DNA of 54,276 nucleotides from a virus: the IMG/VR virus record IMGVR_UViG_3300045020_000038, positions 1-54,276 of that record, one strand, 5' to 3'. Shown piece by piece: positions 3,566 through 52,116 of the stretch (the stretch's first letter is position 1; each line of letters opens with the position of its first letter). The translations under genes and the position numbers were made by a program. The notes beneath the pieces are model-generated. The model had not been told where the DNA came from, did not search any database, and was given only the letters and a program-made list of their open reading frames with translations.

Positions 3566-3744
3566 TCGTACATCATCGTAGTTAATACAAAGAAATGGAT
3601 ATCTAGTTTCTGTTCTTCCATTGAGAGATTATATCCTTCCGCGTTACCTTCAGCAGTTTCCAGATCTTTGAATACAGCTACTGGATGGAAGTCATCTCCA
3701 ATCTCCCGCATTACTACATATACCTGTGTAGATTTAAAGGTCAC
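3562..3744 (-). CDS. Small hypothetical protein (60 aa)
   Basis: It begins MTFKSTQVYVVMREIGDDFH, with a predicted beta-beta-alpha pattern and no known motif. It overlaps the end of the helicase gene and the start of the polymerase N-terminal half by a few bases, so it is part of the helicase-polymerase operon. Function unknown. Confidence 0.65.
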   Translation of the reverse strand: MTFKSTQVYVVMREIGDDFHPVAVFKDLETAEGNAEGYNLSMEEQKLDIHFFVLTTMMYE

Positions 3745-4957
3745 GATATCTTCCTATCTCTGGTTCAATCAACGTTTCCCAACGATCATGTCTCAACTTC
3801 GGATCAGTATCTTCATCTCCCCACAACTTATTCTTACTCAAATGGAGGAAACGAAGATTATCATAACCGGCTTCATTCACTTTTCCAACACCAAGAATCC
3901 AGTCCGCCTCAGCCTGTTTGCTTGTCTTAGCGTTAGCCACGTTTGCCATGGACAACCAGCGAACTCCCTCACCAGACCCATCTGCCTGGCAGACCCCGAT
4001 GACCGGACAATATGTCTTGGCGAGTTCACGAGCCCAAATGTATATGGATCCGAGTCGCAGATCCTCTCGATCATTGTCAAATCCTTTGATCTTATCGATC
4101 TGATCGAAAACAACGAGGCTCGGCTGGACTTTCTTACAGATGGCCTCAACTTGTTTAAAGTGAATTGACGCACTGTCCTTGAGCTTAATGTTGTCCTTAG
4201 TCGCCTGCAGATATTTCTCACGATTCTCTTCCAGATTACTCAGAAGTTGGGTGTTATCCATTCCAAGAGCAGACTGGTAACACCGAAGCATTACTTCCGT
4301 TCCGACCTGTTCATTGTTAAACCAGAGTACAGGATTCGTAGCTTGCGCAGCCATGAATGTAACTTCCGAAGCCAGGAACGTGGTTTTCCCTGTTTCCGGC
4401 CTTGCAAATACAAACCCAAAATTGCCCTGTCTAAGCGACCCAAGACGTTTATTGAGAGATTCAAGACGCCATCGCAAGCCTTCCACAGCGCGACTTGTAT
4501 TAACGATCTCCACAAGATCACTGCTAACGAAATCATTATCCTCGTCTTCACATAGTTGCTCCGGTGACTTGAGTTGTTCTACCAGTTGTTGATAGTCTTC
4601 TTCCTTACCCCGACCCTCCGCTAGTTCATAAGCAGATACAGATAGTTCCCGTAGAAGTCGGCTACGCTTGAACGTCTCAATAAGTTTTTCAGTCGAGAAA
4701 TCATTTGCATCTACCTGTTTGAGAGCGTCGAAGACGCCTGAGTAGAAATCTACCTTACTACGATTACTGGAGAAATACAGATTAGATAAGTCGTCAACGG
4801 TTAGATTACCGTCGGATTCTGTGGTAGTAAAGTACCCGTCGATGGTACGTACTACAGGATGTAGTTCCTTGGAGAAATCGGATACATCCAGGGTATCTCT
4901 GATCTTATTATAATTCTCTTTACTCAGAAGATATTTTACAATACTTAACTCTATCAG
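3734..4957 (-). CDS. Replicative DNA helicase, DnaB/T7 gp4 helicase type
   Basis: RecA-fold helicase of about 407 residues. Walker A reads ARPETGKTTFLAS and Walker B SLVVFDQIDK; VIGVCQAD resembles motif H3. The N-terminal part (KYLLSKENY... HPVVRTIDGYF) is open well upstream of the first NTG codon usually chosen (GTG 4513), which would cut off about 148 conserved-looking residues. No ATG, GTG or TTG fits at the true 5' end. The best start is CTG 4957, which forms a four-base CTGA overlap with the HNH stop and has GGAGGGAGG just upstream. It unwinds DNA at the fork and works with the separate primase at 7865-8650. The helicase call is secure; the CTG start is inferred. Confidence 0.88.
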   Translation of the reverse strand: MIELSIVKYLLSKENYNKIRDTLDVSDFSKELHPVVRTIDGYFTTTESDGNLTVDDLSNLYFSSNRSKVDFYSGVFDALKQVDANDFSTEKLIETFKRSRLLRELSVSAYELAEGRGKEEDYQQLVEQLKSPEQLCEDEDNDFVSSDLVEIVNTSRAVEGLRWRLESLNKRLGSLRQGNFGFVFARPETGKTTFLASEVTFMAAQATNPVLWFNNEQVGTEVMLRCYQSALGMDNTQLLSNLEENREKYLQATKDNIKLKDSASIHFKQVEAICKKVQPSLVVFDQIDKIKGFDNDREDLRLGSIYIWARELAKTYCPVIGVCQADGSGEGVRWLSMANVANAKTSKQAEADWILGVGKVNEAGYDNLRFLHLSKNKLWGDEDTDPKLRHDRWETLIEPEIGRYRDL

Positions 4958-5559
4958 ATATACCTCCCTCCAACTAGTTTCTTATTTTTGATAAAATCTT
5001 CAATAGCTTCGTGAACTTCTTTATTATTAAAAGTTGCTCGTTGCTGTCGAGGTGTTTCTTGCTTGGCAAATTCTCCAAAACCCTCTCCGGCTAATCTATC
5101 ATACTCTTTACAAGCATCCTGGTAATTATAAAAAGGTCCTCGTGAAATAACATTATTATCAATCTTCATATGTACATGCCAGGTATCACTACGAAAATCT
5201 TTTACTACTCCTTTAATACCTGTGAAAGAATTAAATTTCCTTTTCTTGTTTTGAGCATTCTGTTGTGCTGTCGCCAACCTAAGATTGTCCCAGCGATTGT
5301 TGCGTGCATTACCATCTTTATGATCTACATATTCAGGAGGCCATTCTCCTGTCATATAGAAGAAAGCTAATCGATGATAAGAATATGAATACCCTTCAAT
5401 TGTTATACTTCTATAGCCATATTCACTTTCTGTACCAGCAGGTCGTTCTATGTTACGACCTTGTTTTGGAACTAACCACCAGAACAAACCTGTTTCTGGT
5501 TCATACAACAATAGTTCTTTGAGTTCTTCTTGAGTTATCTTTTGTTCTTTATCTGTCAT
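4954..5559 (-). CDS. HNH homing endonuclease with AP2-like C-terminus
   Basis: A 201-residue protein from ATG 5559. The HNH core is visible as YHRLAFFYMTGEWPPEYVDH, then KDGNARNNRWDNLRLAT, the usual pattern of free-standing HNH endonucleases. The C-terminus (GIKGVVKDFRSDTWHVHM) looks like the AP2-type DNA-binding module often fused to them. It sits directly before the helicase, overlapping its inferred start, as a mobile gene inserted in a replication operon. The Shine-Dalgarno is poor at this ATG; an in-frame upstream start at 5601 is possible. Confidence 0.85.
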   Translation of the reverse strand: MTDKEQKITQEELKELLLYEPETGLFWWLVPKQGRNIERPAGTESEYGYRSITIEGYSYSYHRLAFFYMTGEWPPEYVDHKDGNARNNRWDNLRLATAQQNAQNKKRKFNSFTGIKGVVKDFRSDTWHVHMKIDNNVISRGPFYNYQDACKEYDRLAGEGFGEFAKQETPRQQRATFNNKEVHEAIEDFIKNKKLVGGRYI

Positions 5560-5602
5560 TAAGTATTCACTTATAAATAACCTGAACGGAAGAGAAAACA
5601 AA

Positions 5603-5895: not shown

Positions 5896-6079
5896 TCTCT
5901 GCGGAGTGATAGAGGGGTCGTAGTCCTTCTCTCCAATCGAGTCTACCCCTAAGCCTTCCAAGTTCCCAGGTGTTGTAGTCATATTCCCCTTCGGAAGGTA
6001 CATACGGATTGTCCCACGTAAAACCTCCGTCATAAAACCCAACACGGTATCCCTCAATATAAGATTGACTTCTAATCAT
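5891..6079 (-). CDS. Small Tyr/Gly-rich phage protein (62 aa)
   Basis: Begins MIRSQSYIEGYRVGFYDGGF and continues TWDNPY ... YNTWELGRLRGRLDW, a pattern of aromatic and Gly residues that recurs in small phage proteins. The ATG overlaps the upstream stop as ATGA. Function unknown. Confidence 0.7.
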   Translation of the reverse strand: MIRSQSYIEGYRVGFYDGGFTWDNPYVPSEGEYDYNTWELGRLRGRLDWREGLRPLYHSAEN

Positions 6080-6435
6080 GGCGTACCTTCGATGTTGTCA
6101 TCCGGAATAACTGCTCGGTGTCCCTTGTTCCGTTCAAGTGCTTTGGCACAGTGGTTCTCCTGAAATATAGCTAGAAAGGAACACATACGACATCCCCACC
6201 CCCACGATGGGGGAGTAGTGCTCTGCTCATACAACTCAGCCTTGCTAGAACGGCTGGAGATCGTCTCGTCGGGGTCACCGAAGGCCAGGGTATTACCGAG
6301 ACAGTCCAACGTCACCAGGACGTTTTTAACGTACCCATCATCAGTACTGTACTTGTAGATCCCCAGGATAGACCGGGGTACTCGCCACAGAGCGATCCCC
6401 AGATTTTTGAAGTAAAGAATAAACAAACTATTCAT
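6076..6435 (-). CDS. Hypothetical protein (119 aa)
   Basis: The N-terminus is hydrophobic (MNSLFILYFKNLGIALW), the middle is beta-rich, and the C-terminal third carries WGWGCRMCSF and FQENHC, possible metal ligands. It overlaps both neighbours by a few bases. No family is recognised. Confidence 0.65.
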   Translation of the reverse strand: MNSLFILYFKNLGIALWRVPRSILGIYKYSTDDGYVKNVLVTLDCLGNTLAFGDPDETISSRSSKAELYEQSTTPPSWGWGCRMCSFLAIFQENHCAKALERNKGHRAVIPDDNIEGTP

Positions 6436-6907: not shown

Positions 6908-6985
6908 TCATTTCCTCAACATTATGATAACATAGATAATCAGTGTTCCCCAGAACAATATATCAATTAAATCATAAGAGCTCAT
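6908..6985 (-). CDS. Hydrophobic micropeptide, one membrane span (25 aa)
   Basis: ATG 6985 overlaps the protease stop as ATGA, and its stop lies just before the 53-residue gene. The peptide runs MSSYDLIDILFWGTLIIYVI and ends IMLRK: a single transmembrane segment with a basic end. It sits directly after the membrane-anchored protease and may partner it; that is inference. Confidence 0.5.
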   Translation of the reverse strand: MSSYDLIDILFWGTLIIYVIIMLRK

Positions 6986-7674
6986 TTGAGATCTGCCAGT
7001 TCATAAGCCGGGGTTAGGTAACCAATCATAAACGGAATACCATTAATAACTTTCACCTGATCCATTTCCGCAAGACCCATTACACAACTGAGGGAATCAT
7101 CCACTGCCGGACCACCACTGTTCCCCGGCACTAACGAGGTATCATACTGGATAAAGTGATCAAATGGAACTGTCAGAATATCCTCTTGGGCACGATCCGG
7201 GTAAGCGACGTGACCAATGGAAACAGTCTTGGATAGACCGAGGGGTCCTCCCATGAGATCAAGTACCTCTCCATAATATGGTTTAAATGAGCATACAGCC
7301 AGCCCAACGGGCCAGTTGACCGTAGCATCACTGGTGGTAAGGGTCATGATGTCCGGACCCGTTGTATCGTCTGCATCACCGAGCTTCTGAATGTGGAAAG
7401 GGTGTTGCTTACCATCCCCAAAATCTACATTCAATACTGCTGTTGGATCCAATCCTTCGGCACAGTGTGCTGCCGTTACTACCTCATGTGTTCCCTTTAG
7501 TACCCAACCACTACAGTAACTGGAGTCCGTAGTCACTGCTACTACATTCTCCAGTTTCTGTTCCAGAGTCGGTGGAGGAACATAGTGACTAGTCTCATAA
7601 TAGATATGACCAAACAGAGACACCATAGCAATGAATGCCAAGGCACCAAGGGCGCTACCGATCTTCGTAAACAT
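6982..7674 (-). CDS. Membrane-anchored trypsin-like serine protease
   Basis: A 230-residue S1-fold protease. The triad is visible: His70 in VTAAHC, Asp108 in GPDIMTL, Ser186 in PGNSGGP. Residues 7-27 form a hydrophobic segment without a clear signal-peptidase site, so it probably stays anchored with the enzyme domain in the periplasm. Cys54 and Cys71 could form the usual disulfide next to His. It lies in the early block between primase-side genes and small membrane peptides, away from capsid genes, so it is unlikely to be a prohead protease. Roles in superinfection exclusion, host envelope processing or lysis timing are possible. Substrate unknown. Confidence 0.88.
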   Translation of the reverse strand: MFTKIGSALGALAFIAMVSLFGHIYYETSHYVPPPTLEQKLENVVAVTTDSSYCSGWVLKGTHEVVTAAHCAEGLDPTAVLNVDFGDGKQHPFHIQKLGDADDTTGPDIMTLTTSDATVNWPVGLAVCSFKPYYGEVLDLMGGPLGLSKTVSIGHVAYPDRAQEDILTVPFDHFIQYDTSLVPGNSGGPAVDDSLSCVMGLAEMDQVKVINGIPFMIGYLTPAYELADLK

Positions 7675-7865
7675 TATTTATCACCTTTAAGAATTTCTTC
7701 TAAAACCACATCATCATAAATTGTGTTGATCAACTTATTTGCTGCACGAATAGCGGGTTTCATCAACTGCTCTGCAGTATATACGTTACCCGGATTACTA
7801 AGAGTACTTCCAATAATACCTGCTGCATAACAAAGCAAACGCTCACGCTCATTACTTAATTTCAT
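7674..7865 (-). CDS. Small helical protein (63 aa)
   Basis: MKLSNERERLLCYAAGIIGS followed by an amphipathic helical stretch (KPAIRAANKLINTIYDDVV). Its ATG is at the primase stop and its stop at the protease start, so the three are co-transcribed. Function unknown. Confidence 0.65.
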   Translation of the reverse strand: MKLSNERERLLCYAAGIIGSTLSNPGNVYTAEQLMKPAIRAANKLINTIYDDVVLEEILKGDK

Positions 7866-8650
7866 TACAGTTTCAAAGCCTTTTTAATTTGATCAAGTGC
7901 ATGGTCCTTCGGATCATCTAATGTAAATATTGCTCGGCTATGTACCCCCAACATACCCAGTTGACGTGCCATCTTCTGTGCTTCCGGAAACTTGTCATGG
8001 TCCAGCCACACAAAGATATTCTTGTATAGCTGGCGGATACGACTTAGCTTTTTGAGCGGCATCGCTGCACTAAAGCACGGGATTCCATCAATGCCTGCGT
8101 GGCTAACGCAGATTCCGCTGATGCAGTCTTCAACAATGCAAGCCGTGTTTGTTGACGTGCGACTATAATAAGCTGCAATAACGTCCGCTGGCGTTCCTCC
8201 AGTAAAGAAGCGATTGTCATGGGTGGTACCGGCTCGGAAATTACGGGCTTGCCACAACACCAGGTCCTTATCTTCTCCATAAAATCGGAAGATGAGTTGT
8301 TCACGAGATTTACTCCAGCCAACATGGTGACGGATCAGATCGGGAACCGCCAGACCGTACTTACCTACCCATTCCAGCACTACCTCAGGATATCCTCCAG
8401 ACTCAGTGTCATCAGGACAGGATCGTAGTAGACTATTGCTCCCATCACTCTCGGGTCGTCGTTCTCCTGATTGCGACTGTCGAGATAGTTCTGATAGGCT
8501 CTTGACAAATCCGGATTCTCCCGGTTCATATGCTCCACATCCAAAACAGAATGCTGAACCTCCCTCATACCGGGCCAGATTGTCCTTTGATCCGCATACC
8601 GGACAGGGCTCATGCTTGAGAAATCGTGCGCTTTGTGCATAGCCATACAT
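7865..8650 (-). CDS. DNA primase (zinc finger plus Toprim, T7 gp4 N-terminal type)
   Basis: The protein has 261 residues. The zinc-binding domain is CPVCGSKDN ... FCFGCG at residues 16-39. The Toprim region shows the catalytic Glu in ACIVEDCISG and the DxD motif in FVWLDHDKF. The helicase half found in T7 gp4 is absent; the helicase is a separate gene at 3734-4957. It would synthesise RNA primers for lagging-strand synthesis. The internal linker (about residues 55-90) is Ser/Arg-rich and probably flexible. Confidence 0.9.
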   Translation of the reverse strand: MYGYAQSARFLKHEPCPVCGSKDNLARYEGGSAFCFGCGAYEPGESGFVKSLSELSRQSQSGERRPESDGSNSLLRSCPDDTESGGYPEVVLEWVGKYGLAVPDLIRHHVGWSKSREQLIFRFYGEDKDLVLWQARNFRAGTTHDNRFFTGGTPADVIAAYYSRTSTNTACIVEDCISGICVSHAGIDGIPCFSAAMPLKKLSRIRQLYKNIFVWLDHDKFPEAQKMARQLGMLGVHSRAIFTLDDPKDHALDQIKKALKL

Positions 8651-10611: not shown

Positions 10612-10799
10612 TTCAAATCCTTCAAAAAGATTTCAATTTTCTCCAGTGTATCTGCATCGTCTCTAGAAAGTTTGGACAACATAGACTTTGGATGTATAAT
10701 CTCCCATCGAGCTCTATGTATGATTACCAAGAGATCGTCCAAGTCTTGCTTGGTCTCTAGAATAATAGTCATCGGTGCAAATTGTTTTTGGATCTTCAT
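10608..10799 (-). CDS. Small protein, paralogue of 10268-10453 (63 aa)
   Basis: Begins MKIQKQFAPMTIILETKQDL and then turns helical (ARWEIIHPKSMLSKL). The ATG overlaps the ATP-grasp stop. It shares its N-terminal pattern with the gene at 10268-10453. Function unknown; it may belong with the amidoligase operon because of tight coupling. Confidence 0.65.
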   Translation of the reverse strand: MKIQKQFAPMTIILETKQDLDDLLVIIHRARWEIIHPKSMLSKLSRDDADTLEKIEIFLKDLK

Positions 10800-11572
10800 T
10801 TTAGATGCCTAACAAACGCTTGTGCGTAGTTTCCCACGGTACTGCCCTCAAGTCCTGGCGCGGTGTTGACTTCCAGACAGTAACACTCGTTCCGTTTTTC
10901 ATTCCAAATGATGTCAACTGCACCAAAGTCGAGGTTGAGTTGAGCCACCACTCGTTGAGCCATTTGTCGCATCCCTTCAGGCTCGGTGATGTCTTCACGA
11001 CAATAGACCCATCCGGTTTGATGATTACGTACCTGAAAGTCTGCCTTAAAATCTTCTGGCAGATCCTTTCGTTTTCGCTTTTCCTGAACATCGATTACTT
11101 CTCCAAAGGCGACGTGGATCCGGAACTCTTTTTGCTTCTTGATGTACTGCACATACAACGGTGCCCGGACCAGTTTATCTTCGGTATCAGCAAGCACAAT
11201 ACCGGCACCAGAATGACCAGAAAGTACGGTCCGACACACCACAGTAATCTTTTCAGCCAACCAGCTAGTTGCAACAGCTCGGTCGGTAGTATAAACGGGT
11301 ATACGAATTCCATCCACATCCTTCAAAGCGTTAAAAGTACTCAGCTTATTACTGGCGACAGCCACATTAGCTGGATTGTTGATAGTCTTCTTCCCTTCAC
11401 CCACCTCTAGATTGGAGTTGCCCCAATTGATATAGACAGTCCATGGATGTTCCTTGAAGGTGGGGTTCGGGCGATCAGTGAACAGTCGGCGGATTTTGTA
11501 GCCGCAGAGTTCGCTCATTGATAGAGCCAGATTCCTTGCTGACTGAGAGCCGATCTTGTACGGCAGCAGCAC
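10796..11572 (-). CDS. ATP-grasp ligase of the phage amidoligase cluster
   Basis: A 258-residue ATP-grasp enzyme of the RimK/phage peptide-ligase type. An N-terminal strand-helix (LLPYKIGSQSARNLAL) is followed by the ATP-binding Gly-rich loop (RTVLSGHSGAGIVL), KEFRIHVAFGEVI, and the metal-binding end FGAVDIIW ... EVNTAPGLEG. GTG 11572, with AAGGCGG upstream, keeps the N-terminal strand; the shorter ATG 11518 would delete it. It overlaps the GATase gene by 98 bases in another frame. ATP-grasp ligases join a carboxylate to an amine through an acyl phosphate, so it probably extends or caps an amide product with its neighbours. Substrate unknown. Confidence 0.85.
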   Translation of the reverse strand: MLLPYKIGSQSARNLALSMSELCGYKIRRLFTDRPNPTFKEHPWTVYINWGNSNLEVGEGKKTINNPANVAVASNKLSTFNALKDVDGIRIPVYTTDRAVATSWLAEKITVVCRTVLSGHSGAGIVLADTEDKLVRAPLYVQYIKKQKEFRIHVAFGEVIDVQEKRKRKDLPEDFKADFQVRNHQTGWVYCREDITEPEGMRQMAQRVVAQLNLDFGAVDIIWNEKRNECYCLEVNTAPGLEGSTVGNYAQAFVRHLK

Positions 11573-13082
11573 TAGAGGCCGCCTTGGTGCGGGCTGCTTC
11601 AATTGCTTTCTTGGTGTTGGTGTACGATGCAAGGTACTTGTCACGGTAGTCCTCCCGTTCAATCTTCTTGGCGATACAGTCAGGGCACAACATTGTCAAT
11701 ACATTAACTGGCTTTTCTTTCTTCGGCATGATGACATGCTTCTCAACAAGAGTTGTAAATACTTTCTCCCAAGCCTCTACCTTACGTTGGCATTCCATAC
11801 AGCATCCATGATTCATGGCATAGTCCCACAACATAACCGGGACTTCCTTGGAATGTACCTGTGTAAATGTAGCCTTCTTGGTATCCTTTACGTGGATGGT
11901 CCATCCTCCATTAACTGTATGGGTGTGATGTTGTACCGTCCCAATACACATTGTTTCAAACCACTGAGGTAATTCATTACCCGATACATCATGTGGAAGA
12001 AATCCCTTGACATCCAGACGTTCCTTCCCGGGGGTCATAACCAACCCATTGAAAGAGAACCGTCCATTGGCTGTCTTCGATGCCGCATGAATCTTGATCA
12101 GCATTGTCTCATTACGAGGGAATGCCTCATTGTACGCATGGATAGATGCAGTCCGAGCTTCCGCCTGATCCTCATCACTAGAAGGCGAGGTGTCTTTTGC
12201 GAGCGTTAGCGCGCAGGGCTTCGAAGGCGTCGGGGTCGAGTGGGCTTGTTTTGCGGGAGCCATCTCCGTCCCTTTCGGAAAAAGCTCACAGTCCTTCCGT
12301 GCCTGTGCCCTCATACCCGTACTATATCGTTGCCAAGCCAGAAGCTCGGCATCATCGTCGAACTCCCCCGATAGGGTCACATCCTCCTTGTTAAAGGAAC
12401 CATCAGCGTTGAATACAAAAATCTCGCCTGGTTCAATCGGGATAGAACGCTTGATCTCAATATGAGCGCGCTGTGCCGGGAAAGCAGCAATCCACGCCTC
12501 CGAAGTGAGGAACATGAAGTTATCACTTTCCAGAATACAGAGAGGTCGTTCATCATTCCGGGTAGCATACAACTTCTCAGTATTGGTATCATACCAGATC
12601 AATGCAAATGCCCCATTAATCTTGGAGATTACTCTCTTGTAATCACCATGACCTTCTAGTTCACTTTCTTCTGCCAACGCGTGGGCGATAGCGTGGCTAT
12701 CCACCTTGGTACTCACGTCGGTCAGGTTCTTCTGATCCTTCAACGTACCATTGTGAACCAGAATAATATTCTTTTCCACGAAGGGATGGGCGTTGTCTGT
12801 GTTGACTTCACCACGGGTCGCCGCACGGTTGTGCCCAACAATAAACTTACCCCGATTGGTAACACTAGACTTGAATTCTCCCCACTCCGTCGATCGGAAT
12901 AGATTGTAGGGATGTGAACCATGCTTAATAGCTCGAACATCACCATTACGGAAACGGGTAAATACCCCCGTCGAATCCTTCCCTCGGATGGAATCAATCA
13001 GTAACATGGTTTCGAATACCTCCACGTCACCATAGTTGAATCCTTGGGGCTTACGAGCGATCATTCCCAAAAGTCCGCACAT
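11475..13082 (-). CDS. Class II glutamine amidotransferase (Ntn) with C-terminal extension
   Basis: A 535-residue protein. Residues 1 to about 240 are an Ntn-type glutaminase: Cys2 after the initiator Met is the nucleophile (MCGLLGMIA), with GHNRAATRGEVN, NAHPF and LVHNGT forming the glutamine site. A Pro/Thr/Ser/Lys linker of locally higher GC follows (about 285-330), then a domain of about 200 residues with CCMECQRK and LCPDC, four possible zinc ligands. The sugar-isomerase or synthetase half of GlmS or AsnB is absent. It would release ammonia from glutamine for the adjacent ligases. The last 30 residues share DNA with the ATP-grasp start. Confidence 0.88.
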   Translation of the reverse strand: MCGLLGMIARKPQGFNYGDVEVFETMLLIDSIRGKDSTGVFTRFRNGDVRAIKHGSHPYNLFRSTEWGEFKSSVTNRGKFIVGHNRAATRGEVNTDNAHPFVEKNIILVHNGTLKDQKNLTDVSTKVDSHAIAHALAEESELEGHGDYKRVISKINGAFALIWYDTNTEKLYATRNDERPLCILESDNFMFLTSEAWIAAFPAQRAHIEIKRSIPIEPGEIFVFNADGSFNKEDVTLSGEFDDDAELLAWQRYSTGMRAQARKDCELFPKGTEMAPAKQAHSTPTPSKPCALTLAKDTSPSSDEDQAEARTASIHAYNEAFPRNETMLIKIHAASKTANGRFSFNGLVMTPGKERLDVKGFLPHDVSGNELPQWFETMCIGTVQHHTHTVNGGWTIHVKDTKKATFTQVHSKEVPVMLWDYAMNHGCCMECQRKVEAWEKVFTTLVEKHVIMPKKEKPVNVLTMLCPDCIAKKIEREDYRDKYLASYTNTKKAIEAARTKAASSAAAVQDRLSVSKESGSINERTLRLQNPPTVH

Positions 13083-13085
13083 CAG

Positions 13086-13982
13086 TTATGCTCCGATAAT
13101 TTTAAAATAAGGCGACTCTTTCGAGACACTTTTGATCAAGGTTGTTAACCTGTTACGGTCGATGAACGACCTCTTGACTACACCACTGGAACGACGGATA
13201 TCCTCAAATGATTCAAACTTCAATCGAATATCATCGTTACCAAAGATATCGTGTAGCAATTCCCTCCAGTTAGTAAAGGCATTACACTCAATTGCCAATC
13301 GACAAATGGCGGGAGTCCCCACCTTCAGTACATAGTCCACCAACTTATTGATAATCCGAATCCAGATCACCACCTTATTGTGATTGAAGGTTCCATGCAT
13401 GTGACGAAATTCAATGGTACCGAATTCCCCCAGCGGAATGATATTCAATCCCGCATACTTGGACCAGGTTTCTACAACGGCACCCAGATTCTCCCGACCC
13501 ATGCCAGTAATCAGCATGGTATCCATCAACGGTACACAGTAGATATTCTTGATTCGTCCACGACCCGTGTACTTATAGAACAACGGCTCAAGGATGGTAT
13601 ACAACATCAAGATGTCGGTTACCTGTGTTCCGGTCATCCCCTGACAATTCACATGTACGTGGATGGACGTACGTGGAGAGAAGCAGCATGACTCAGCCAG
13701 ACTGTTACCCAGTAAATCCTGCAACGCATTGGGGGCATACTTGGCTGCGATCGGATGCGTCACCCATTCCACACCAGCATTACGCAAACTACCATCTGCC
13801 TTATTCATCCACACCGGTTGTGGATTGTGTTTATATCCAGCATTCTCCACTTCCACTTCAATACCAATGGCCCGATCACAATCGATAACCTCTGGACCAG
13901 GCTGCATCGTGGCATAGAAGGGACCAGCATCCAGTATCGTCGGAGGACGTACCCCGAAGATATCTCCTACAGTTTTAGCCAT
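13086..13982 (-). CDS. Amidoligase (COOH-NH2 ligase, Amidoligase_2-like)
   Basis: A 298-residue member of the glutamine-synthetase/GCS-like amidoligase superfamily. Visible motifs: IGIEVEVEN (metal-binding Glu), KADGSLRNAGVEWVT, TSIHVHVNCQG, and GTIEFRHMHGT (Glu plus Arg for nucleotide). These match the active-site pattern of phage and bacterial amidoligases described by Iyer and co-workers. It should form an amide bond from a carboxylate and an amine or ammonia with ATP. It lies between the Ntn GATase (3 bases) and the 208-residue gene (8-base overlap). Substrates unknown. Confidence 0.85.
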   Translation of the reverse strand: MAKTVGDIFGVRPPTILDAGPFYATMQPGPEVIDCDRAIGIEVEVENAGYKHNPQPVWMNKADGSLRNAGVEWVTHPIAAKYAPNALQDLLGNSLAESCCFSPRTSIHVHVNCQGMTGTQVTDILMLYTILEPLFYKYTGRGRIKNIYCVPLMDTMLITGMGRENLGAVVETWSKYAGLNIIPLGEFGTIEFRHMHGTFNHNKVVIWIRIINKLVDYVLKVGTPAICRLAIECNAFTNWRELLHDIFGNDDIRLKFESFEDIRRSSGVVKRSFIDRNRLTTLIKSVSKESPYFKIIGA

Positions 13983-14601
13983 GAATATCCTCCAGCAAGA
14001 ATTGTACAGTCGGACGATAATCTTCTTCCATCAACACCGTGAGTTTTCCCTTCGAATCCACTCGTGCAATTGGATGAACCCAATGCCATAGCACGTAATC
14101 CGGATTCTCGAACAACGTTTGAGTCAAGGTGAAGTTATCCCGTAGTGCAACACCACGAAATCCCCCTACCTTCAACATCTTCAATGCCTCCTTGACAGAA
14201 TAGGTTTCGTGCTCGAAGGCGTCACGGATTTCTGCGTGATTCCATCGGGACCGATTACCCACCACATTCCGGGTAACATTAAACAGAACACTGTTATCCG
14301 GGCAGATTCCCCTACGATACTGCCGTTGGGGGCGACGGTAGAATACCATCGCATCCGTTTCATGCTGGAATACCCCGACCGGAGGATACTTGAATCGGAG
14401 TTGATGCCCATCCGATCCAAAGTTAATCTGGAATTTACCCAGAGTATCACTGGATAGATGCATGGTGGCAATCTTCGATCCACCTGTCTCTTCTACCAGA
14501 TCTACCTTGACCAGTTCTTCCTCTCGATCTGCGATATCCAGCCAGACAAACGTTCCTTGCCAGCGTCGGCTAAAGTCCTGGATCACTTCCGAGTTAGTCA
14601 C
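13975..14601 (-). CDS. Uncharacterised amidoligase-cluster protein (208 aa)
   Basis: Locked between the two amidoligases by 8-base and 4-base overlaps, so very likely part of the pathway. Readable features are a beta-rich first half (WQGTFVWLDI ... KIATMHLSSD), a basic centre (FYRRPQRQYRRG) and a mixed C-terminus ending FLLEDIHG. No catalytic motif is recognised. It could be an accessory subunit or a new enzyme. Confidence 0.75.
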   Translation of the reverse strand: MTNSEVIQDFSRRWQGTFVWLDIADREEELVKVDLVEETGGSKIATMHLSSDTLGKFQINFGSDGHQLRFKYPPVGVFQHETDAMVFYRRPQRQYRRGICPDNSVLFNVTRNVVGNRSRWNHAEIRDAFEHETYSVKEALKMLKVGGFRGVALRDNFTLTQTLFENPDYVLWHWVHPIARVDSKGKLTVLMEEDYRPTVQFLLEDIHG

Positions 14602-15377
14602 AGTCCAATCTCCTGCTTCAGTTGAGCGAGCAACTTCAGATCGCTGTTGTTGATACAGGCTTGGATCATTGCACCCTGTTCATCCGTGAATGTCCGACCA
14701 GATGCCACGAATTCCAGAGCTTTTTCGGTCTGATCCCAGACCCACTGAATCCGTTCATCCGATTCGATCCACCGATTGGACGCGGTGCGATATTCCACCC
14801 CGTAACTCTTCTTACGGAATGCTCCAGCCTTACCATATAACTCACGACGACCAGCATCGTTGTCAAACTCCAGCATCAGACAGCCAACAAAGGCGTCCAT
14901 CGCCTTGACAACAGCCAGCATGTCCATCTCGTCATGGTCAAACTGAATGTGGATATGGCCACCACACGAGCGGAGATTCTTGTTCGCTGCTTGTGGAGGG
15001 GGGTTTTGATTACCATTATTCCACGCATTGTAATCCGGCTCACAGCCGAAAGTCTTAGCAGCACGAGTTTGCAACTGATCATCATCGAACACGGCGCTGG
15101 GCTTTATCACCATTTCCAATCCCAACTCGGCAGCACGAGCCTTGATCCAATCCTTATTCAGATTGATATTCTTGATGAAGTCCGCCGCACTCCTGCAAGG
15201 AGGGGTGTTGAATTCAATCGTAACATTGTCTTCCTGCACAGCGTTACCTTCATCGTCAATCGGACGAGGTTGTTCTTTCGAACCCCCTACCAGACCAACA
15301 CTGCTGATGAACTTGTTGTTCTTCGGATCGAAGAGAAACGTTTCAGGATCACAGCCAAGGCGTCGAATTTGTTGCAT
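14598..15377 (-). CDS. phiEco32-like COOH-NH2 ligase, type 2
   Basis: A 259-residue protein matching the phage phiEco32-like COOH-NH2 ligase family. It has LGCDPETFLFD at the N-terminus, DNVTIEFNTPP with the metal-binding Glu, CGGHIHIQFDHDEMD, and KSYGVEYRTASNRW with Glu/Arg near the end of the fold. It is the second, divergent amidoligase of the cluster, so the product may hold two different amide linkages. ATG 15377 follows AGGTTAAC. It overlaps the 208-residue gene by four bases. Confidence 0.88.
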   Translation of the reverse strand: MQQIRRLGCDPETFLFDPKNNKFISSVGLVGGSKEQPRPIDDEGNAVQEDNVTIEFNTPPCRSAADFIKNINLNKDWIKARAAELGLEMVIKPSAVFDDDQLQTRAAKTFGCEPDYNAWNNGNQNPPPQAANKNLRSCGGHIHIQFDHDEMDMLAVVKAMDAFVGCLMLEFDNDAGRRELYGKAGAFRKKSYGVEYRTASNRWIESDERIQWVWDQTEKALEFVASGRTFTDEQGAMIQACINNSDLKLLAQLKQEIGL

Positions 15378-15384
15378 GTTAACC

Positions 15385-16128
15385 TCACTTATTCAGGATA
15401 TATTGATCAACTTTACGCAGGCAATACTGGACAAACGGACTTTCTTCCGGGTTACCCACAAATTCCGGATGACCTTGAATCGCTAGACCCTTGATATCCG
15501 GGAACCACACAATCTCCGGTTCAGGAGTATCCGTCTTGTGCATCTCGGCATCTTCAGCATCTCCCTCCGTGATGTATGTGTTACTCCGCTTAGGCCATGC
15601 CTGAGCCAACAATACGTGACTCACATCAAACGGATACATCATCTGGTGGTGTACCGACGTGGTATTGATCACGATATCTTCATCCAGACACTTCATCCCG
15701 TGTGTACCACCGTGATTGTTCACGTGCTGGATAAGACGCCCACCAGCCAAAGCACACAGAAGTTGAGCACCCCGGCAAACACCGATAAGAGCAATCCCCC
15801 TCTCCATAGCCGCGAAACATGCTTCAGCTTCCACTTGATCCCGTCGTGATAGACTTGTACGAGCATCAGTATACTTACTAGGCAGCTCCCCATATAGAGA
15901 AGGAGAAATATCCTCCCCACCCCAAATAACGAGAGCATCAATGTCGACTCCATTTGCAATCTCCGTGGGAGTTACCAGTCGACCCTTCTGGTAACGTTGA
16001 TCAAAGGGATCCAGGGTACCCGTACCCATTCCTACATGACCGAGAGTCAACGCCTTCGATTCTTGTCCCAACGTTAGTACTTCGCTTTCAACTGCCTTAA
16101 CGATATCTGTCAATTTACTTACTCCCAT
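15385..16128 (-). CDS. Class I glutamine amidotransferase / gamma-glutamyl hydrolase-like (peptidase C26)
   Basis: A 247-residue protein. The nucleophile elbow is LIGVCRGAQLL (Cys118), and the His-Glu pair is in IQGHPEF, giving a complete triad; VIWGGEDISPSLYG marks the oxyanion region. Such enzymes release ammonia from glutamine or cleave gamma-glutamyl bonds, as PuuD does. Having both this and an Ntn GATase in one cluster suggests one supplies ammonia and the other removes a gamma-glutamyl group, but either could do either. TTG 16113, with GGGAG upstream, is a possible alternative start. Confidence 0.85.
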   Translation of the reverse strand: MGVSKLTDIVKAVESEVLTLGQESKALTLGHVGMGTGTLDPFDQRYQKGRLVTPTEIANGVDIDALVIWGGEDISPSLYGELPSKYTDARTSLSRRDQVEAEACFAAMERGIALIGVCRGAQLLCALAGGRLIQHVNNHGGTHGMKCLDEDIVINTTSVHHQMMYPFDVSHVLLAQAWPKRSNTYITEGDAEDAEMHKTDTPEPEIVWFPDIKGLAIQGHPEFVGNPEESPFVQYCLRKVDQYILNK

Positions 16129-35512: not shown

Positions 35513-35947
35513 ATGGGTATTCTTGATCTTGTCGCGGGACCTATCTTGGACATTGTAGACAAGATTATCCCAACACCTATGACTGCAGAGCAGAAAGTTC
35601 AAGCTCAATTGGCAGTAGCACAACTTGCACAAAATGAAGAATTTAAACAAATTGATGCACAGTTAGCTACGACTCAACAACAAACAGATACTGATAAGGC
35701 TGAAGCATCTAGTAATAGTTTATTTGTTGCTGGATGGCGGCCCTTTATTGGCTGGATTTGTGGTACCGGTCTTGGTTGGAACTATATTGGAATTTCTGTG
35801 CTTTCCTTCTTGACTACGGTAGTGGGACATCCGGTTGTGATGCAAAAAGCTGATCTCAGTGAAATGATGCCACTACTTATTGGTATGCTCGGTTTGGGTG
35901 GTATGCGTACATATGAAAAAATCAATGGAGTAAATAGTGGCCAATAG
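35513..35947 (+). CDS. Holin (3-TM, gene-transfer-agent type)
   Basis: 144 residues. A Gln-rich helical region (EEFKQIDAQLATTQQQTDTD) leads to RPFIGWICGTGLGWNYIG, a second span ISVLSFLTTVVG, and MMPLLIGMLGLGGMRTYEKI at the end. This is the characteristic pattern of the GTA-type 3-TM holin family. It would permeabilise the inner membrane so endolysin can reach the wall. The endolysin is 12 kb away at the end of the block. Confidence 0.82.
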   Translation: MGILDLVAGPILDIVDKIIPTPMTAEQKVQAQLAVAQLAQNEEFKQIDAQLATTQQQTDTDKAEASSNSLFVAGWRPFIGWICGTGLGWNYIGISVLSFLTTVVGHPVVMQKADLSEMMPLLIGMLGLGGMRTYEKINGVNSGQ

Positions 35948-46000: not shown

Positions 46001-48107
46001 TGGAGATTTTAAGCAGATTGTAAAGGATAGTGAAGGTCGAGTGGTAGCAGTACTTGGACATAACAATCGTACTGCCCTTGGAGTTATTGCTAAGCGGTTT
46101 CAGGAACTACATCCGGATGGAGAGAATCTGGATATGGGTAAACCAATACTCCGTAAGGGTAGTGTAGATGATCATACCTTCAATGGCTTCATGAACATCC
46201 TGAATGAACTGTCCAAGACCAATGCAGATATTGATCGGATTGTACAGGCGTACCATGATACCCAGATGGCCAGCACTAACAAACTGAGCCAGATGGCTAA
46301 CCGGGGTAAGTTTAAATCTAATCCGGAAAATACCGTTGGTGGGGCAGAGGGAAGTAAACTTTGGCAGTCGATGCAACAGAATGCAATCGATGGTGGGAAA
46401 CAACAGTTGAAGTATCTAGATTCCGTGAATCGCTGGAGTGAGTTTCAACAAGCTATCAGCAAGGCTGAGAACTTCATTAAGGATCCTACTGTAGATGCAC
46501 CCAATGCTAAGGCTGTTAGTCAAGACTATCTGGACAACCAGATGCATCGGAACCTAGGTGATCTGAATAAGTTTACCAACAGTATGGTAAATGGTATTGC
46601 TGAAGTGACTGGTGTAGGTCCTACCCAAATGCGACAGATGGCTAACTTTACCAAGACTGGTTTGCTTAATATGTTTGTTGGTCTCGGGAAGTTCAGTCAT
46701 AGTCTTGTTACACTACTTCAACCGATCTTTGGTATTCCAATGGTGAATAGTGTAATGCGAGCTGATGGTGCTGCTTTTGGTAAAGCTAGTGTCTTGTCGA
46801 TCTTCAAATCTTTGATGTCGAATAAAGATATGTTGCAATCCCTGGCAACCAAACAACCCATTAGTGATCCATTTGTACGAGCAGCGAATGAGTATGCACG
46901 AGCTAATGATAGCTTCAATACTAGTCAGTTTAATATGGGTACCATTGCACATCAACCATCCAAACTGGGTAATGCTCTTCACATTAATGTGACTGTTCCT
47001 GAATCAGGTACTCGGGCATTTACGTATATGTATTATGCCCATATGCTGAAGGATACTGTTGGTGATCAGATGTCTGATAAGGAGATCTTTGGTACCGCCC
47101 ACAATGCTGTACAAAAAGTAATGGCGGACTATAGTCGAGAGGCAGCAGCACCCATGTTTAACAAGATGGGTTTCCTGGGTGATCTTACCCGGATGTTGAC
47201 GACCTTCAAGATGAATCAGATCAGCCAAGCAGCCACTGCAGGTAAGATGTTTGGTCAAGGCAAGGTAGGTCCGATGGTAACAATGCTTGCAACTAGTATT
47301 GCTGCTTCAGGAGTTCGTGGTTTTATTGGATACAACATTGCCAATGGTCTGTTGGGGCAACTTACCACATGGGCCACCAAACAAGGCTTAATGCAGCAAC
47401 CGACCAACTTGGATCAAATCCTATTGCATTCGCTTCATGGAGTGAATAAGGGTCTTGCAGATGCTCTGAATTTTGGGATGACATCGGGTCTTGGTATTGA
47501 TATGACAGGATCTCTGTCTCATGCGGATGACATTCCTGACGATCCTCTAGGGACTCTTTTGCCAGAAGGTAGTCCTGTGGCAAAGGTGGTGGGTTCTGTA
47601 GCGACTCTAGCAGAACATCCCAACAAGCAGAATGCGAAAGCGGCTCTGTATGATGCATTACCTAACTCTATGAAAGGGGTTATGGAGAATATGGCGTATA
47701 CGGATAAGAATGGTAATTACTATGATCCCCACACCGGGAATCTGGTAGCTAACCGCACACCCACTGATCAGATGAAACGGAACTTCTCATTCCGTCCGCT
47801 GGACGAAAGTAAGATGCGTCTGCAGGCTACAGTTGGTGCTGAACAGAATCAACAACTGGAAACAGTGAAGTCTGAGATTATTAAACGGGCTTTAAGTGAT
47901 TCCGATTCTGGTAGTCTTACCCAACAAGCTATGCATGATTATGCGAATAGGTATTACCAGGCTGGAGGAGATCCTACTGAACTAGCTAATAAACTAGCTA
48001 CTCATATGGGAGTTAACAAGCATCTCAACATTGAACAACGTGAAGCCGGTATGGCTAGTGGCCTAGCTGGTGCAGAACGTTATCAACGCGCACAAGGACT
48101 TAAATGA
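43008..48107 (+). CDS. Giant internal virion protein with lytic transglycosylase domain
   Basis: 1,699 residues. Residues 10-120 form a lytic transglycosylase: Glu22 in LYSITKQETGG is the expected acid, then GSMQVEPATA and AIAYNMGPGRTDKW. A membrane-like segment lies near residues 180-210. Residues 380-480 carry short repeats (NMGPNEGPQ, NMGANEGPQ). The C-terminal 900 residues are helical, as in T7 gp16 and similar ejection proteins. It should be ejected ahead of the genome, cut peptidoglycan locally and form part of the trans-envelope channel. It is the last virion gene before endolysin. Confidence 0.85.
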   Translation: MADLSQLSNDQLTQLYSITKQETGGASDKSTITSPKGATGSMQVEPATAGDPGFGVRPSDGSPEDTARMGRDYFLALSQHYKDPTTAAIAYNMGPGRTDKWLENGANPADLPTETLAYAHNFNQNTQQATQQQQPQAPQQQGGGDLSSLTDDQLKQMYKAPADDKNSLWNNIKGLGLQAANLAVAGIETPAILGAGAIGATGRALEGQPLAANLAKTVENVQKNYGQFSAEAGLNKAGIDTSGVQDTAGYQLPNEAMNYIGNTLPGQLAAAGTAGSPFSAAQTLSPSQQAVAKPALQLAELATPFLHRGGGIVAEGAGAPAEAAAKLAGDDAAAPSANQFTGPPRNAADFGPRRSIIVDSQGRAVFQGQEPTTEQLLADAAQRRAEAFMGPNAGPPAPARPSFPPNMGPNEGPQQMFPGNMGANEGPQIPNAQAFARGIMQPVEPNMGPQRPPITVDRQGVASTNLGNTQEQMALQGQQAGLEQAQRNAGLAQLQGQGELFPQGTEGQASPFNPNRLSEDYQQPFNPRNPTNLRQGQLDFTQAQTPDIFQVNREGEAGTPQQHEEVAPYRDATQRRMDDMSRQSPEQLDMFNPIDQRTFDQFGPNETPRSLNPDEFAETVQNLAAKDGTRFPLPEDMEGAYSRYLDTVRDDQGGLFDRATIAKKFVEAAADESKSRMVADHPIVKANQDRVNRLQASIDQAGGVAPPGMRDALAQAQRTLEKSQENIGKQMPKDPRLPYEKDGVVNMFTFGNLPEMFKSIGAVLKGLHGVVFKTLDRMIPASRNLDSFAKIAQQGIKNFVNREANRDWSQTVNEKPMDQLGKIPGMRNAVDSLNPHAQDDLSPEELKAQFNQATDLSDSKVGNFLRNNVLQGGLMLSDFSRHPLVKYTTDSVAKAFRSADKWARENLLNKQTGLGQMIKDMPLDHFTEIRTLMEANEGTREFTPSELKNRGFTDEQIKYYQRSLELQKEAFTKFNTGRQAAGLPPVTPRIAHIAGYFTGDFKQIVKDSEGRVVAVLGHNNRTALGVIAKRFQELHPDGENLDMGKPILRKGSVDDHTFNGFMNILNELSKTNADIDRIVQAYHDTQMASTNKLSQMANRGKFKSNPENTVGGAEGSKLWQSMQQNAIDGGKQQLKYLDSVNRWSEFQQAISKAENFIKDPTVDAPNAKAVSQDYLDNQMHRNLGDLNKFTNSMVNGIAEVTGVGPTQMRQMANFTKTGLLNMFVGLGKFSHSLVTLLQPIFGIPMVNSVMRADGAAFGKASVLSIFKSLMSNKDMLQSLATKQPISDPFVRAANEYARANDSFNTSQFNMGTIAHQPSKLGNALHINVTVPESGTRAFTYMYYAHMLKDTVGDQMSDKEIFGTAHNAVQKVMADYSREAAAPMFNKMGFLGDLTRMLTTFKMNQISQAATAGKMFGQGKVGPMVTMLATSIAASGVRGFIGYNIANGLLGQLTTWATKQGLMQQPTNLDQILLHSLHGVNKGLADALNFGMTSGLGIDMTGSLSHADDIPDDPLGTLLPEGSPVAKVVGSVATLAEHPNKQNAKAALYDALPNSMKGVMENMAYTDKNGNYYDPHTGNLVANRTPTDQMKRNFSFRPLDESKMRLQATVGAEQNQQLETVKSEIIKRALSDSDSGSLTQQAMHDYANRYYQAGGDPTELANKLATHMGVNKHLNIEQREAGMASGLAGAERYQRAQGLK

Positions 48108-48688
48108 ATACCAACAATCTAACTTATAGCCCGAACGGTTTTAAGCTCACAGAGCAATTCGAGGGTTTGTCCCTGACGGCTTACCAGGATGTAGCCGGTG
48201 TATGGACTAATGGTTATGGGAATACTCACGGAGTTGTTCCTGGTAGTACCATTAGTTTTCAACAGGCTCAGAATGATCTCGCGAGCAACATCGAAGGAGC
48301 TGAGTATGTTGTCAACCGTGTAGTTACTGTGCAACTCAATCAGAATCAATTTGATGCATTGGTGGATTTCGTATTCAATCTGGGAAGCGCTAACTTTCAA
48401 TCCAGCACCCTTCTCCGGAAGCTCAATGTGGGAGATGTATCTGGCGCTAGTGCTGAGTTTCCTAAGTGGAATCATGCGGGGGGTGTAGTAGTAGATGGAT
48501 TAACGAGACGAAGGCTCTCGGAACAAGCCCTTTTCAATACACAAGTGCTCGTGGAAAGCCCACCAAACACTACGACTGTATCTACTGGGATAGTAACCCA
48601 ACCAGTTGATCCAAGCCCTACGGTTACGTCGGTAGTTTCGGATATACAACAGGTAATCACTGATCTTCAAAATAAATTCTCCAGTTAA
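48104..48688 (+). CDS. Endolysin, T4-type lysozyme (GH24)
   Basis: 194 residues. The catalytic triad is spaced exactly as in T4 lysozyme: Glu20 (LTEQFEGLSL), Asp29 (YQDVAG), Thr35 (VWTNGYGNT). FVFNLGSANFQSSTLLRKLN and GLTRRRLSEQALF complete the fold. The C-terminal 45 residues are Thr/Val/Pro-rich with no known binding motif. There is no signal peptide, so it depends on the holin. ATGA overlap with the previous gene. Confidence 0.92.
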   Translation: MNTNNLTYSPNGFKLTEQFEGLSLTAYQDVAGVWTNGYGNTHGVVPGSTISFQQAQNDLASNIEGAEYVVNRVVTVQLNQNQFDALVDFVFNLGSANFQSSTLLRKLNVGDVSGASAEFPKWNHAGGVVVDGLTRRRLSEQALFNTQVLVESPPNTTTVSTGIVTQPVDPSPTVTSVVSDIQQVITDLQNKFSS

Positions 48689-51279: not shown

Positions 51280-51565
51280 CTTCCTCGTAGTACATATCTA
51301 ACCCCAGCGCAGAACCAATGGTATATTCCAGGGTAGCCCCCGCACTCTCTTGCCATCCAATAAGCATATACATCGCTTCACAATGAATCAGTGCCTCGAT
51401 ATCCTTGATCATACATTCTTTCCAATCCGCTTTTGGATCTGGATTAATGTCGACCGGATTGACAACCTCCCACCCATCATATCGTAGATCATCTGCCACA
51501 GAATTGAAGGCATCAAAGTTCATACCTTCGTAACCAGTCATCGGTCCAGCAATATAGATGCTCAT
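51212..51565 (-). CDS. DUF4406-like, nucleoside deoxyribosyltransferase-fold protein
   Basis: 117 residues. MSIYIAGPMTGYEGMNFDAF, then VNPVDINPDP and LIGWQESAGATLEYTIGSAL follow the pattern of DUF4406, related to nucleoside 2-deoxyribosyltransferases; the Glu in ATLEYTIG fits the catalytic position. It lies with the RNR and the dNTP diphosphohydrolase-like gene, so a role in nucleotide salvage or hydrolysis is likely. Confidence 0.78.
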   Translation of the reverse strand: MSIYIAGPMTGYEGMNFDAFNSVADDLRYDGWEVVNPVDINPDPKADWKECMIKDIEALIHCEAMYMLIGWQESAGATLEYTIGSALGLDMYYEEDDYKNDNNGTNTAGNDGEAESA

Positions 51566-52116
51566 TACTTGTCCTCAATCGTATAATGTTTGGGGAATTT
51601 ATCCTTATGATTATTTTTTATCTTTTTTACCAAAGGAGTATATTGTTCAATCAATTTCTGATATCCTTCTCCCCTCGTCTGACGATCATCTACAAGTTTT
51701 CCAGTACTTTGTGCATCTACCAGAATAGCCAGACAAGCCAGAGCATGAGCAAGGTGAGGAACCCCGCTGTCATCAGCATTATCCTCTCCTTCAAACCAGG
51801 CATCCAGATGACGCTTGCAGGCATCCACATAAATACTAGAACGCACACCAGCATGCCTCCAATTGGAGCGCCCATATTTACACATCCCGTCGAGTAGACC
51901 TAGAGTACCAAATATAGTAGCACTAGCGGGCCATAGATGAAGAGGTAGTTTATCACTACCTATAACATCTTTTGGATTAGAAGGTTTCATCAAAAGATTC
52001 TGACCCTCTTGTTGGTTACTCCATTCAAGGAGTTCTAGTTCTTGAATGCCCATATTAATATGCGGTAATGACCAAAGGTTTATCGGTGGCAGCTTTAAGT
52101 TTTTCCAGTCTATCAT
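51565..52116 (-). CDS. dATP/dGTP diphosphohydrolase-like protein (DUF5664)
   Basis: 183 residues. SNPKDVIGSDKLPLHLWPAS, then DGMCKYGRSNWRHAGV, DACKRHLDAWFEGEDNADDS and HLAHALACLAILVDA match the phage DUF5664 family, named for dATP/dGTP diphosphohydrolase. The HLDAW and ExExNADDSG residues look like a metal site. It may adjust purine dNTP pools. Its ATG overlaps the 80-residue gene upstream; its stop abuts the DUF4406 gene. Confidence 0.75.
   Translation of the reverse strand: MIDWKNLKLPPINLWSLPHINMGIQELELLEWSNQQEGQNLLMKPSNPKDVIGSDKLPLHLWPASATIFGTLGLLDGMCKYGRSNWRHAGVRSSIYVDACKRHLDAWFEGEDNADDSGVPHLAHALACLAILVDAQSTGKLVDDRQTRGEGYQKLIEQYTPLVKKIKNNHKDKFPKHYTIEDK

Follow-up and report, generated by a model that had tools for sequence, protein, structure and literature searches.

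We propose that a gene in the replication block of a tailed phage encodes an exported, envelope-tethered serine protease of the chymotrypsin fold, and that during infection this protease probably cuts at least one protein of the host envelope. The gene is part of the window, by which we mean the whole 54,276-nt stretch of viral DNA analyzed here (IMG/VR record IMGVR_UViG_3300045020_000038). The first 100 bases of the window are repeated near its end, consistent with a complete, circularly assembled genome, and matches of the terminase and of an amidoligase cluster identified Alcaligenes phage vB_Af_QDWS535 as the nearest cultured relative. The genes around the protease, in their order of reading, are as follows:

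7865..8650, minus strand, DNA primase (phrog_47, E=2.7e-18)
7674..7865, minus strand, orf63, the clade-specific conserved upstream neighbor of the protease
6982..7674, minus strand, trypsin-fold serine protease of 230 aa, predicted to be exported and anchored (Pfam, AF2 model, fold match and syntenic homologs)
6908..6985, minus strand, single-span membrane peptide of 25 aa, MSSYDLIDILFWGTLIIYVIIMLRK
6076..6435, minus strand, orf119 (phrog_3342), the conserved downstream neighbor

The protease ORF starts with an ATG at 7674, which is preceded by a good Shine-Dalgarno sequence (AAAGGTG), and its TGA stop ends at 6982; the translation contains, in order, MFTKIGSALGALAFIAMVSLFGHIYYETSHY, CSGWVLKGTHEVVTAAHC, GPDIMTL and VPGNSGGPAVDDSLSCVMG. 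It matched Pfam Trypsin_2 (E=4.8e-12) and Trypsin (E=1.1e-6) above the curated cut-offs of both families, and is therefore not a chance ORF. The residues discussed below are encoded at these positions:

7603..7662, minus strand, N-terminal hydrophobic signal or anchor, residues ~5-24, rich in Gly, Ala and Ser (hydropathy and lipobox scan)
7462..7515, minus strand, Cys54 and Cys71 (the latter in TAAHC), at the positions of the chymotrypsin C42-C58 disulfide (invariant columns; presumptive pair)
7465..7467, minus strand, catalytic His70 in TAAHC (invariant column)
7351..7353, minus strand, catalytic Asp108 (invariant column)
7117..7119, minus strand, catalytic Ser186 in PGNSGGP (invariant column)

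The first-pass annotation had described a complete S1 triad with Ser186 in the region 6908-7674, and both the coordinates and Ser186 were correct. H70, D108, S186 and the GNSGG sequence were invariant in an alignment of five diverged homologs (36-55% identical), so the His-Asp-Ser order and the G-x-S-G-G motif of family S1 (PA clan) are conserved across the protease family. An AF2 model of moderate confidence (pLDDT 73, pTM 0.73), built on the five-sequence alignment, gave a two-barrel chymotrypsin fold whose best PDB match was the DegS protease domain (Foldseek E=4e-10, prob 1.00). Many of the DegS matches were delta-PDZ protease domains, and they were followed by Rv3671c (E=1.2e-9), DegP and other HtrA proteins. 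Pfam detected no PDZ domain in any homolog, and the window protein ends about 44 residues past Ser186. The residue at -6 from Ser186, equivalent to S1-pocket position 189, is Ser in the window protease and not the Asp of trypsin (S1A, Arg/Lys specificity); across the homologs it is S, A, Q, V or K. From what is known of the S1 family, trypsin-like specificity for Arg or Lys would therefore not be expected.

The evidence for export came from the N-terminus and from the cysteines. The N-terminal anchor claimed in the earlier reading is present as the hydrophobic segment at residues ~5-24, and a hydrophobic, Gly/Ala-rich N-terminus was found in four of the five distinct homologs aligned. In the remaining lineage (L094-096), the N-terminus starts MNNFIRGAMVGLAILLAGC and carries a lipobox (LLAGC) in place of the hydrophobic anchor. 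These export signals were predicted from hydropathy and motif. That one catalytic domain is combined with two different anchors argues that export and tethering are under selection. Leaving aside the lipobox Cys of L094, exactly four Cys are invariant in all five homologs, with Cys128 and Cys197 forming the second presumptive pair, and this pattern fits an oxidizing periplasm in which the two putative disulfides could form. The portion beyond the anchor is strongly acidic (net charge -8 to -17). An envelope location is thus well supported by the predicted signals, and is strengthened by the lipobox in one homolog lineage and by the four invariant cysteines. We suggest that the N-terminus directs the protease across the inner membrane of the host and retains it at that membrane, by a hydrophobic anchor in most lineages and by a lipid anchor in one, so that a disulfide-stabilized catalytic domain would face the periplasm, free, unlike DegS, of gating by a PDZ domain. 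That the gene product is an exported protease with activity, as its conserved triad predicts, is in our judgment very probable.

The mode of action of such a protein may be likened to that of a membrane-tethered periplasmic serine protease such as E. coli DegS (MEROPS S1C), with which it shares the chymotrypsin fold, the GNSGG motif, a single N-terminal anchor and, by prediction, a periplasmic catalytic domain. Unlike DegS, the phage protease is without a PDZ domain, has four invariant Cys and takes a lipoprotein form in one lineage; the two are about 23% identical, and the NCBIfam DegS model gave the phage protein 22.5 bits where the cut-off is 423. Sequence similarity to the HtrA/HhoA/Do family extended over residues 51-195 (E=3e-11), but the phage protein has cysteines and no PDZ domain, and its score with the NCBIfam HhoA/HhoB/HtrA model (43.1 bits) was below the cut-off of 450. 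Judged by the PDZ domain and the curated scores, the phage protease falls outside the DegS/HtrA group (S1C). We evaluated the possibility that it is nevertheless a DegS mimic, a permanently active site-1 protease without a PDZ domain, which by cleaving the anti-sigma factor RseA would switch on the envelope-stress sigma factor of the host to the advantage of the phage. The DegS matches, many of them delta-PDZ, the shared layout of one N-terminal anchor and a putative periplasmic domain, and an S1 position that is not Asp would suit this proposal; the low identity, the presumptive disulfides and the lipid anchor of one lineage, which are not features of DegS, together with a literature search that found no precedent, make it distinctly unlikely.

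MarP (Rv3671c), a mycobacterial membrane-bound periplasmic serine protease, likewise has a membrane-linked protease domain and was among the fold matches noted above, but its sequence match to the phage protease was only marginal. MarP has several TM helices, which is a further difference. The first-pass annotation regarded a protease of this type as rare in phage genomes, and that is a fair description, although the gene is not unique: a trypsin-like serine protease has been reported from cluster N, a group of T4-like rhizobial phages (PMC10783043). These proteases and the 'HtrA protease' of Rhizobium phage AF3, which matched the window protease by fold, are phage-encoded and trypsin-fold. 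They belong to a different phage type and gave no tblastn sequence match, and in the portions of the sources we consulted their export is not described. A tblastn search for relatives among sequenced phages recovered only weak matches to HtrA-type proteins, some of them in bacterial-looking contigs. Phage trypsin-like proteases were already known; what is new here is a version without a PDZ domain that is exported, tethered by a lipid or a TM segment and marked by a disulfide-like arrangement of cysteines.

The protease gene is a minus-strand member of the replication block, lying between the primase and DnaB genes, while the terminase, portal, capsid, tail, holin (35513-35947) and endolysin (48104-48688) genes are on the plus strand. 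The early-block placement noted in the first reading is therefore correct in that the gene lies away from the head, tail and lysis genes. We infer from gene position that the protease is expressed early, and it would be made together with the replication genes; a promoter scan gave no excess over shuffled sequences (26 versus 31.7 expected). The same early placement had been taken to exclude a role in prohead maturation. We agree that a prohead or virion maturation protease is highly improbable, but the argument runs through export and fold and not through position alone. Phages need proteases of this kind and PHROGs identified no separate prohead protease in the window, which would speak for such a role. 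Against this, the protein carries an export signal or lipobox and the cysteine pattern, its gene is in the replication block on the strand opposite the head genes, and G003, a relative whose packaging module is similar (terminase 83% identical), lacks it. To our knowledge, the trypsin fold is unlike the folds of known prohead proteases.

We then considered whether the protease might act late, weakening the envelope together with orf119 as part of lysis. The only conserved downstream neighbor of the protease, orf119 overlaps the protease stop in L094, and its relatives are found downstream of holin-lysozyme-spanin in Xanthomonas phage PBR31 and, in Caulobacter phage Percy, ahead of the holin. 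A simple lipobox scan of the late region of the window (24-49 kb) found no spanin-like lipoprotein despite the holin and the endolysin, a result that would favor this reading. However, the protease gene shares its strand with the replication genes and is distant from the holin and endolysin genes of the phage, orf119 persists in a relative without the protease (L092), and orf119 relatives elsewhere often adjoin tail genes. We regard a lysis role as unlikely; the link through orf119 is suggestive, but the contexts of orf119 are mixed, and since its relatives lie in lysis cassettes but also beside tail genes, orf119 gives no firm clue to the function of the protease. The orf119 family, with the motif VLVTLDxLxNxLxxGDPDETISSR...CxxC...HC, is widespread in phages, by spanin, endolysin and holin genes or by tail genes.

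When 2.9 million viral contigs were scanned with the single protein and with a profile, the protease was recovered in seven contigs, representing five lineages, besides the window. The identities to the window protease were as follows:

G001/L001, the sister of the window, 97%
L090, 55%
L093, 54%
L094, L095 and L096, 51%, identical to one another
L097, 36%

In all seven contigs the gene occupies the same slot, directly after orf63 and before orf119, and the recurrent order in the phage clade is primase - orf63 - protease - orf119 - DnaB. The neighbor orf63 was itself found in exactly eight viral contigs, seven of which have the protease. The eighth (L092/G003) contains no trypsin domain anywhere in its 54-kb record; there orf63 leads directly into a small ORF and then orf119, leaving the slot cleanly without the protease. 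Phage vB_Af_QDWS535 has an equivalent of the amidoligase/ATP-grasp cluster (10.8-16 kb in the window), but the annotation of its replication region lists no trypsin-like gene, and a link between the protease and this cluster was not retained. The protease was also absent from the wider relatives searched. The same slot in seven contigs, the clean absence in L092/G003 and the absence in wider relatives indicate that, on this comparison, the protease gene is accessory, stably kept at one fixed site and yet dispensable, a distribution that would fit an accessory host-interaction function. The DnaB and primase trees were too poorly resolved to tell whether G003 lost the gene. A profile scan of 84,980 genomes for bacterial donor or prophage copies confirmed no relative, and a plasmid search yielded only trypsin-like proteins of about 29% identity.

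The window and sister proteases differ by 36.5 synonymous and 6.5 nonsynonymous differences (dN/dS about 0.05), and the gene thus appears to be under strong purifying selection. The sister gene (L007 (G001) 3853-4545, minus strand), in contig IMGVR_UViG_3300050821_007602, has one in-frame TGA at the Trp121 codon, upstream of Ser186. Taken by itself the TGA may be a sequencing error, a very recent loss or a sign of dispensability; because the dN/dS shows constraint, we read it as either an error in the sequence or a loss that happened very recently.

The first reading had also coupled the protease to the 25-residue peptide. The peptide is a single hydrophobic span and does overlap the protease stop, as had been described, with its ATG and the TGA of the protease sharing a stretch of 4 nt, but it lacks a clear Shine-Dalgarno sequence and overlaps occur at five of the six adjacent junctions from primase to orf119. 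The peptide is retained at 88% in the sister G001, where a 67-aa ORF sits between the protease and the peptide and takes over the 4-nt overlap; it is absent from all other homolog loci, and the adjacency of the two genes is thus not conserved. Given that overlaps are common, that the peptide has no evident Shine-Dalgarno sequence and that the sister arrangement is broken, we attribute the stop-start overlap to ordinary operon packing and not to a conserved unit. The proposal that protease and peptide form a two-part functional unit draws on their adjacency in the window and the retention of the peptide in the sister, but with the peptide missing elsewhere, an ORF intervening in the sister and overlaps being the rule in the operon, it is very unlikely, and the comparison argues against the peptide as a partner of the protease. 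The overlap of stop and start had been read as a sign that the two genes function together, a reading that falls away once a single sister genome is compared.

The best overall explanation of these results, which we consider reasonably probable, is that the gene encodes an exported, envelope-tethered protease that cuts host envelope protein(s) during infection, and a target in the host envelope is itself rather likely. It has been argued that phage peptidases of patchy distribution are directed at host proteins (PMC7824862), and Llp of phage T5 is an early lipoprotein that acts in exclusion at the envelope (PMC9586334). On the strength of these two reports, we favor cleavage of host envelope proteins, with exclusion and anti-defense as its leading uses. 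The resemblance to T5 Llp lies in an early phage protein in the envelope of the infected cell (PMC9586334) and in the lipobox of one homolog lineage; Llp, however, is not a protease and acts by binding and blocking FhuA. The most likely benefit would be an infected-cell envelope altered against a competitor or a defense, and possible targets include a receptor or DNA-entry factor, as in superinfection exclusion, or a membrane-bound defense protein. Superinfection exclusion specifically is a tentative suggestion. The exclusion of other phages and the processing of a surface protein, both put forward in the first reading, would be two of several conceivable uses for an envelope protease. Somewhat less likely still is an anti-defense protease that inactivates or degrades membrane-anchored defense or exclusion proteins of the host or a prophage and lets the phage's own infection proceed. 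An accessory, patchy gene in the replication block with a predicted exported product would suit it, as would the general case that patchy phage peptidases target host proteins (PMC7824862), but the locus has no defense-related neighbors, only a homing endonuclease and a weak domain-level resemblance to RT-Protease XI, and we did not retain a link to a defense system.

Manipulation of the envelope by phages is known mostly through bind-and-block proteins of the Llp type or sugar-modifying enzymes, and a dedicated exported protease would be a catalytic route to the same end. A literature search on phage-encoded DegS-like or exclusion proteases found nothing direct. In its most specific form, the favored cleavage of host envelope proteins would involve a PDZ-less, constitutively active DegS-like protease that is exported early to the periplasm and cleaves a specific host signaling or receptor protein, reprogramming the envelope by proteolysis and not by blocking of the Llp type; we offer this form as speculation that is rather unlikely to hold in every part. 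The analysis also adds a compact family of proteases that have no PDZ domain and whose cysteines are arranged in a disulfide-like way.

Some further features of the window were recorded. The DnaB helicase (3734-4957, minus strand) has an intact frame of ~407 codons, probably with a CTG start, which follows GGAGGGAGGT in the window and the sister; the DnaB frames of L090, L094 and L092 start with TTG at the same place. In the window and the sister the CTG overlaps the stop of an HNH homing-endonuclease-like ORF (4954-5601, minus strand) directly upstream, and ORF callers truncate DnaB to 259 aa; ORFs similar to the HNH one occur at this position in L092 and L094. The ORF at 51565-52116 (minus strand) matches phrog_2252 'endolysin; inhibits RNA polymerase' (E=2e-57), but this lysis label is doubtful because the ORF also matches the dATP/dGTP pyrophosphohydrolase family. 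A cluster of ATP-grasp, glutamine amidotransferase, amidoligase and COOH-NH2 ligase genes occupies 10796-16128 (minus strand), as in QDWS535, and the COOH-NH2 ligase has matches in about 310 phage records.
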